From Cytophagaceae bacterium (GTDB lineage: Bacteria; Bacteroidota; Bacteroidia; Cytophagales; UBA9547), in contig JAIYAU010000057.1 of NCBI GenBank assembly GCA_027488865.1, forward strand, positions 1 to 51,896: a DNA stretch of 51,896 nt. The letters are read 5' to 3'. Shown here piece after piece: positions 46,070-47,293 of this stretch. Within the stretch, counting starts at the first letter, position 1. Each line of letters begins with the position of its first letter. The notes beneath the pieces are model-generated. The model saw only the letters and a list, made by a program, of their open reading frames with translations, had not been told where the DNA came from and made no database searches. Position numbers and translations under genes: made by a program.

Positions 46070-47293
46070 TTACCTCTTTTTTAAATTTAACCCTTCTGCT
46101 ATTAAGTTCATAATGAAGGTAATTATAAATAAAATACAGCCAAGCATAAATAATGCTTGGTAATGAATTCCTCCTTGTGGTGCTTCGCCAAGTTCTGAAG
46201 CAATAGTTGCTGTTATGGTGCGAACAGATGCGTAAAAAGGATTTTTAAAATGACCTTCATAATCAAGCAAATAAGGAATGACAGCGGCATTCCCAGTTAC
46301 CATAATTACTGCCATTGTTTCACCAATTGCTCTGCCTATTCCCAATAAACTTGCGGAAATTATACCTGATTTAGCATAGGGAATAATGACTCTTGAAATA
46401 GTTTGCCATTTATTAGCACCAAGAGCATAACTTGCTTCTTTGAGTTCGCTTGGTGTAGACTTCATAGCGTCTTCCGAAAGTGTGATGATGGTTGGTAGTG
46501 ATATAATTCCAAGTAAAATACTACCAGAAAGAGCTGTTTCTCCTACTGGAAGATCAAAAAAATCAGCTACAAATGGTACTAGTAATGCTAAACCTAGGTA
46601 TCCAAATACTACAGATGGAATACCTGCTAACAATTCGATGGTTGGCTTAAGCACTTGATGCACGTTTTTAGGCGCTAATTCTGACAAGTAAACTGCTACA
46701 GCCAAGCCTATAGGTAAGCTAAACAGTATGGCTCCTAGGCTTACTAATAATGAACCCAAAATAATAGGCAACACTCCTAACTGTACCGCAGGGGTGGCGG
46801 TAGGATGCCATTCTTTCCCTCCAACAAAATCTTTCAATGAAATATTTTTCATATGAAATTTTTTGATTTTTGGCGGCAGGTATTTTTCAGGGAATACGGC
46901 AATCACACCTGGATTATTCATGATATATTCACCAATTTTGGAAGGTAAATATTCAAAAGAACTTCCAAGTTCTTCAAGTGTAAATAGGCGATCTACATCC
47001 GAAAGAGTAAAAAGCACAATGGGTTCATCCTTACCTCCAAGATCTTTCCAATTTCGTATTTCTTTTTCAAAAATTTGTTTAATCTCTTCAGGTTTTAATT
47101 CCTTAATTGGGTTGGTTGGATTAAGCATGATTGCCGTACCTTCCTCTAAGGGCTGTTGATTAAAAAGACCAATCCCCTCTTTAAATAAGAAAAAGACAAT
47201 TAAGAAAACTATAAGTATGGCCAAGTTGCCACTTATAAAAACAAGGCTTTCAATAAACCCTTCTTTAAGCTTGAATAGAAAACTTTTTTTCAC
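46070..47293 (-). CDS. pstC: Phosphate ABC transporter permease PstC with a periplasmic insert
   Basis: The PstC partner of PstA, longer than usual at 407 residues. TM1 (about residues 20-38) is followed by a ~130-residue extracytoplasmic region before TM2 (about residues 172-192); E. coli PstC has a much shorter loop. In the insert, residues about 57-100 (LNPTNPIKELKPEEIKQIF, then RNWKDLGGKDEPIVLFT) closely resemble the PstS segment [34 protein letters not shown] encoded next door. Residues 124-140 (IMNNPGVIAVFPEKYLP) resemble PstS GGIGYVGLIYANK. The rest is ordinary PstC: LLAGIPSVVFGYLGLALLV and the EAA loop ELKEASYALGANKWQTISRV. Confidence 0.93.
   Translation of the reverse strand: MKKSFLFKLKEGFIESLVFISGNLAILIVFLIVFFLFKEGIGLFNQQPLEEGTAIMLNPTNPIKELKPEEIKQIFEKEIRNWKDLGGKDEPIVLFTLSDVDRLFTLEELGSSFEYLPSKIGEYIMNNPGVIAVFPEKYLPPKIKKFHMKNISLKDFVGGKEWHPTATPAVQLGVLPIILGSLLVSLGAILFSLPIGLAVAVYLSELAPKNVHQVLKPTIELLAGIPSVVFGYLGLALLVPFVADFFDLPVGETALSGSILLGIISLPTIITLSEDAMKSTPSELKEASYALGANKWQTISRVIIPYAKSGIISASLLGIGRAIGETMAVIMVTGNAAVIPYLLDYEGHFKNPFYASVRTITATIASELGEAPQGGIHYQALFMLGCILFIITFIMNLIAEGLNLKKR

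Follow-up and report, generated by a model that had tools for sequence, protein, structure and literature searches.

In the window, that is, the whole stretch of 51,896 nucleotides that was analysed, the gene for the phosphate permease PstC has pstS, pstA and pstB all as neighbours, and all of them lie on the minus strand. The genes of this pst operon are:

44404..45156, minus strand: pstB, 250 aa, ATPase (named from its own sequence and its place in the operon)
45195..46040, minus strand: pstA, 281 aa, without an insert such as that of PstC (open reading frame and family matches)
46070..47293, minus strand: pstC, 407 aa, permease with a PstS lobe-II insert, GTG start (open reading frame and family matches)
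47352..48179, minus strand: pstS, separate receptor with the SSGT phosphate loop intact (open reading frame and family matches)

The PstC protein scores 286.2 bits against the phosphate permease model TIGR02138 (curated cut-off 196.45) and contains the PF00528 (BPD_transp_1) core at E 1.2e-18. A search for PhoU (PF01895) gave no match in the window genome, which is 99.98 percent complete, despite the pst operon; the same search matched in 13 of 14 control genomes. PhoU was also without a match in several PstC-bearing genomes of this order and family, and was present in 29 of 33 insert-bearing genomes as against 10 of the 20 whose PstC was called ordinary by alignment range. The window genome encodes two more PstS-like proteins (L003:1162-2022 and L004:1039-2031), with no pst permease or ATPase genes within about 3 kb around them, and the one at L003 resembles, by reading, a lipoprotein. 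Elsewhere in the window, two very similar tandem genes of 187 aa (42529-43092 and 43240-43803), which we take to resemble TerD-type proteins, lie beside a presumably PspA-like gene at 41610-42479.

The loop between the first two transmembrane helices (TM1 and TM2) of the window PstC holds a shortened domain homologous to lobe II of the receptor PstS. This folded domain, at about residues 46-160, lies between TM1 and the loop motif FVGGKEWHP. The parts of the protein, in residues of the window PstC, are:

47159..47281, minus strand: TM1 helix, residues 5-45, leading into the insert (AlphaFold2 model)
46862..47143, minus strand: part of the insert that resembles PstS lobe II, roughly residues 51-144 (profile and fold matches)
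47009..47122, minus strand: best-conserved lobe-II core, residues 58-95, NPTN..L...IF..I.NWKDLGG.D..I..F (PF12849, BLASTP, conservation)
46949..47008, minus strand: residues 96-115, an EELG stretch without SGT at the site of the PstS R-x-x-SSGT loop (alignment)
46889..46948, minus strand: residues 116-135, helix and strand GVIAVF, similar to PstS GGIGYV (profile-profile alignment and model)
46802..46825, minus strand: residues 157-164, region of FVGGKEWHP, the motif of the usual PstC loop between TM1 and TM2
46088..46777, minus strand: PstC transmembrane core, residues 173-402 (profile match, tree)

The region bounded by window residues 46 and 162 measures 106-128 residues (median 119) in 65 insert-bearing PstCs, and its counterpart in 64 ordinary PstCs measures 18-31 (median 19). 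An earlier note on this DNA had counted about 130 extra residues between TM1 and TM2; the extra stretch exists, but the gain amounts to about 100. The window PstC also has a 10-residue late-loop insertion at residues 344-353 (46235-46264), missing in 38 of 38 relatives of alignment A2.

The earlier note had aligned residues 57-100 with PstS of the same operon, and this likeness was borne out by BLASTP (14 of 42 residues identical, E 8e-10) and by a PF12849 match at residues 51-102 (E 2.3e-8), whose 34.6 bits exceed the gathering score of 27 and which covers positions 92-143 of the 267 in the profile. The model TIGR02136 matched residues 52-96 (E 5e-9) with 35.7 bits, far lower than its whole-protein cut-off of 206.6, as expected for a partial receptor. 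When a profile of 39 inserts was compared with one of 27 PstS proteins by hhalign, the alignment extended over 94 columns (probability 98.9, E 3.6e-17) and brought the later segment NNPGVIAVFPEKYL into register with PstS GGIGYVGLIYANK, a pairing that had been suggested before; the profile similarity corresponds in extent to PstS lobe II and goes beyond the stretch aligned at first. The insert profile also matched the PstS of PDB entry 4q8r (E 3.4e-14; profile positions 8-116 of 122, chain residues 79-198 of 252).

PF12849 matched every one of the 39 closer PstCs with the insert that were scanned (E up to 0.01), and none of 39 other PstCs, chosen from the 85 non-insert PstCs of the tree, even at E up to 1. 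Against a profile of these 39 non-insert PstCs, the insert profile reached a probability of 4.3 over 13 columns of ordinary PstC loop. These statistics and negative controls, together with more than 60 PstCs that carry the insert in separate assemblies (a few perhaps from the same species in two collections), exclude chance similarity, a misassembly or a frame artefact, to which we give practically no credence. The inserts of distant members (L171-L178) are eroded: in alignment A4, made of 11 PstCs (nine with the insert; L146 and L148 without), PF12849 matched six members at E up to 1, the best at 0.007, and the one member viewed in detail scored under the gathering score. Their kinship is accepted because they align with the other inserts and because of their place in the tree. 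The PstC at L146:3233-4804, 523 aa from a Cloacimonadota MAG, has a different periplasmic insert, apparently internally repeated.

AlphaFold2 modelled the full window PstC (39 alignment rows) with a mean pLDDT of 83.8 and insert blocks at 87-93, and the insert alone with a pLDDT of 76.6 and a pTM of 0.68, the ends being weak. In the model the first insert strand (53-57) follows TM1, and a short strand (161-163) leads back to TM2. A Foldseek search with the insert model returned 13 matches with E <= 0.001, all phosphate-binding proteins. A structural aligner matched the insert model to 1twy_B (Z 9.7, rmsd 2.0, 87 residues, chain 103-221); the aligner's own note gives 7 to 8 as the usual best Z of models without a clear match, and 9.7 lies only moderately above this. 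Phosphate-binding proteins filled its rows 1-37, as far as Z 5.1, followed by other type-II domains such as LysR effector domains and glutamate receptors (Z 3.8-4.6), and E. coli PstS (9k3x_E) gave Z 6.3. The insert as modelled has the fold of PstS lobe II, and shares with PstS (PF12849; PDB 1twy, 4q8r, 4gd5) the lobe II fold, sequence and an NW..GG core. It therefore has both a binding-protein profile match and a PstS-like predicted structure, the two points on which the earlier note had made its reading depend.

In its permease core the window PstC matches the E. coli protein as solved by cryo-EM within PstSCAB (9k3s, 9k3x, 9k3y), and the full model superposes on 9k3x_B with Z 24.3 and rmsd 3.5 over 277 residues at 31 percent identity. 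E. coli PstC has 319 residues against 407 in the window PstC, and most of the insert must lie among the 130 window residues that did not align. Our literature search found no paper describing 9k3x.

Unlike PstS, the insert is a single lobe with a transmembrane helix attached at either end, mostly acidic and without SGT. At the site of the phosphate loop, SGT occurs in 0 of 65 inserts versus 59 of 59 PstS open reading frames of the same loci; SG-like matches in three inserts (L085, L102, L170) fall at other sites. Two further residues conserved in PstS, Asp 105 and Arg 151, are also not kept in the inserts, and these, with SGT at 155-157, are established as phosphate-binding residues in PstS. 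Common to inserts and PstS are N61, L66, W82, G86, G87 and I92, with W82 in 65 of 65 inserts. The EELG loop that replaces the phosphate loop is partly conserved among inserts (G110 in 94, L109 in 77 and E108 in 66 percent). The net charge of the inserts averages -7.7 (range -20 to +4; window insert -3) and that of the same span of the cognate PstS +1.95; across 55 operons the median charge is -8 for the insert and +8 for the cognate PstS. A functional PstS has two lobes and an SGT loop with an arginine; the window insert consists of lobe II only, and the inserts have no such loop. With the loop lost and only one lobe, which by itself cannot clamp a ligand, phosphate binding is unlikely; the insert probably cannot close on a ligand and no longer binds phosphate. 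The description in the earlier note of a reduced type-II lobe without the phosphate loop is thus upheld by the profiles, by the predicted fold and by the absence of the loop from every insert.

A survey of PstC length and insert presence, as the earlier note had advised, revealed an insert-bearing PstC lineage spread across the class. In the class sample an alignment spanning the insert was obtained for 63 of 395 genomes, the window's own genome counted in both numbers, and two further genomes end short of it; among the other 62, the inserts of 12 were read and those of 12 more were checked by score only. The insert was found in 7 of 395 genomes of the phylum sample (own included, the six others read) and in 8 of 291 of the order sample (own included; four of the seven others read, L186-L188 resting on alignment range). 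Three genomes whose PstC has a long TM1-TM2 loop of another kind (G051, G055 and G194) had aligned across the insert by range alone, so that counts by range may overcount at low identity. Among the nearest relatives, none of the 28 others has the insert, and 8 of the 28 have a PstC of the ordinary form with an identity of at least 37 percent; within the order G780 comes nearest, at 64 percent. The patchy presence of the insert among members of the order suggests loss or transfer.

The class, order and named-record counts rule out an insert unique to the window genome. The named carriers among the matches listed are Flavobacterium limnosediminis, F. agrisoli, Sabulibacter ruber, Bacteroides timonensis and Parabacteroides sp. 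An277, and the insert-bearing MAGs among them come from Prevotella, Rikenellaceae, Tannerellaceae and Saprospiraceae. Two MAGs filed under Fibrobacterota (L099, L105) also carry the insert; they are placed among Bacteroidota rows of the tree, and therefore transfer or wrong binning is indicated. PstS is present in the fetched stretch of 59 of 64 insert loci, and PstA likewise in 59 of 64. In L087 and L088 the insert-bearing pstC (4989-6209 in both) has no pstS, pstA or pstB in the fetched flanks, the neighbours of the L087 gene being, by reading, genes of sugar metabolism on one side and one for tRNA modification on the other, and L090 and L173 have no pstA nearby.

Some other PstCs of the phylum (L062-L070, L072, L073, L077-L079, L081) are 378-520 aa long and are enlarged at the same insertion point. 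Their loops are acidic and of low complexity, several with EPESYNPD-like repeats, and they form a separate branch of the tree. Reading and the lack of a binding-protein match in Pfam ruled them out as carriers of the same insert; they represent a second, unrelated enlargement of the same loop. Four archaeal records contain open reading frames of 651-686 aa (L136:14-2074, L143:1684-3639, L144:4821-6797, L161:4821-6785) with about equal PstC and PstA scores, which are apparent PstC-PstA fusions.

The history of the insert was followed in a PstC-core tree of 150 rows (residues 173-400, insert columns left out, quick search), in which the 65 insert rows fall on one side of one branch, corresponding to 1 change against a shuffled mean of 48.9. 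The SH-aLRT support of this branch is 84, which is not starred, and the window row sits on a long branch. Not included in it were L034 (a near copy of L033), the fragments L156 and L160, the fusions L136, L143, L144 and L161, one of the two PstCs in L128, and the loci below L033 except L006-L013; two insert rows are borderline, L121, which lies on a cut contig and has an insert score of 26, and L178, which was counted by eye and has no such score. The ordinary form of PstC occurs in many bacterial and archaeal records among the matches listed. The tree alone is not directional, and one gain is favoured because the ordinary form is widespread in bacteria and archaea.

In a second tree, of inserts and PstS lobes (105 columns), the 25 sampled inserts form one group with SH-aLRT 100, and the source of the insert was not placed; its rows are random samples plus those of the window (25 of 65 inserts, 26 of 60 PstS from insert operons, 45 of 73 other PstS). 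A recent copy from the PstS of the same operon found no support, the mean identity being 0.241 for 60 cognate pairs and 0.240 for non-cognate pairs. The copy is old, since the inserts form one group and are no closer to their own PstS. Together the data suggest that the insert was acquired once, long ago, as a copy of PstS lobe II.

The insert is under purifying selection, with a median dN/dS of 0.147 (range 0.036-0.391, 12 of 19 pairs), compared with a median of 0.036 for the PstC core (11 of 19 pairs), and its dN is about 3.5 times that of the core. These values are rough, dS being saturated in 7 of 19 pairs for the insert and in 8 of 19 for the core, and often near saturation in the others. 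The earlier note had offered a relic of a receptor-permease fusion as one origin of the insert, and a functionless remnant of that kind would suit the eroded inserts of the distant members; it is disfavoured by the purifying selection, by the well-ordered predicted fold (insert blocks at pLDDT 87-93) and by retention of the insert in many families of the class, and we hold it to be very improbable.

Whole receptor domains are fused to importers of the GlnPQ or OpuA kind, which need no free receptor. GlnPQ, OpuA and ArtRQP have receptor sequence in the permease chain, as has the insert-bearing PstC, and for ArtRQP of B. subtilis this is described in PMC11466899. In importers of the GlnPQ or OpuA kind a complete fused receptor replaces the free one, whereas here a single lobe sits in a loop and a free PstS is kept in 59 of 64 loci, which rules out the insert as a replacement receptor.

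On balance we read the insert as an accessory pseudo-lobe, gained once, that putatively helps PstS to dock, to be oriented or to hand over on PstCA, a reading in which our confidence slightly exceeds our doubt. In type-II binding proteins lobe II sits inside lobe I via two hinge strands. The two ends of lobe II would thus lie side by side at the hinge, making the lobe movable as a unit; copied into the TM1-TM2 loop of PstC, it may have found in the membrane domain a stand-in for lobe I. The pseudo-lobe could then form a fixed periplasmic platform on which PstS docks, is oriented, or passes phosphate to PstC and PstA. This putative role is modelled on the P2 loop of MalF in the maltose importer, which has a different fold and occupies a different permease loop; it is compared with the insert only as something that works alike, with no kinship claimed. 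The periplasmic P2 loop touches the binding protein MalE, according to titles of papers cited in PMC5775613 and PMC3328499. In favour of docking stand the opposite median charges of insert and cognate PstS and the PstS kept in 59 of 64 loci. Several observations count against it. The charge of the insert does not track that of PstS across 55 operons (Spearman 0.08, p 0.56), the window insert is no more than mildly acidic, the correlation between insert and PstS distances corrected for PstC core and PstA is weak (0.11, p 0.07) and lower than that between insert and PstA, and many PstCs, those of near relatives included, are without the insert. The fast change of the insert at the amino-acid level is also unlike that of a tightly constrained interface.

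The main rival to a docking platform is a gate or brake, in which the pseudo-lobe would cover the mouth of PstCA until loaded PstS docks, cutting idle ATPase activity or leak. The same position in the chain and the lost ligand loop, with a charge that is mostly acidic, would be in keeping with something that plugs an anion path, but no structure places the insert over that mouth, the model being a single PstC chain, and we consider a gate unlikely though worth keeping in view. A somewhat smaller chance is given to a module for assembly or stability, through which the insert would steady PstC-PstA or bind another envelope partner rather than PstS. It would agree with the correlation of insert and PstA distances beyond PstC core and PstS (0.26, p 0.003); PstA and the PstC core, however, change nearly in step (r 0.94), and the residual may reflect shared rate or alignment noise. 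The partly conserved EELG loop would fit a lobe that binds another small molecule and tunes transport. Type-II binding proteins hold their ligand between two lobes, while only one is present here and the insert is variable as a whole, so that a sensor of this sort seems improbable.

Of the papers listed from the literature, mainly open-access and judged by title and the start of the abstract, none reports a PstS-like domain within PstC. Such a domain is easily overlooked, because the NCBIfam model calls the window protein a plain PstC, and databases may list the pair of PstC and binding-protein domains without comment. The insert lineage takes in records named Bacteroides, Parabacteroides, Prevotella and Flavobacterium, among the matches listed. 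The pstC of Bacteroides fragilis, which need not be one that carries the insert, depends on PhoB and increases more than tenfold when phosphate is low (PMC3547664).

These results describe a transporter subunit that gained half of its own receptor and retained it, minus the ligand loop. Returning to the accessory pseudo-lobe, a lineage of Bacteroidota may have made a half-receptor copy a permanent part of the channel, as a decoy lobe that clasps PstS or plugs the empty channel, a view that we hold about as readily as we doubt it. The insert-bearing PstC lets the share of a binding-protein lobe in docking or gating be examined apart from ligand binding. Such a decoy lobe, if real, would be a third way to join receptor and permease, beside free and fused receptors, and nature would already supply for comparison transporters that have the built-in lobe and others that lack it.
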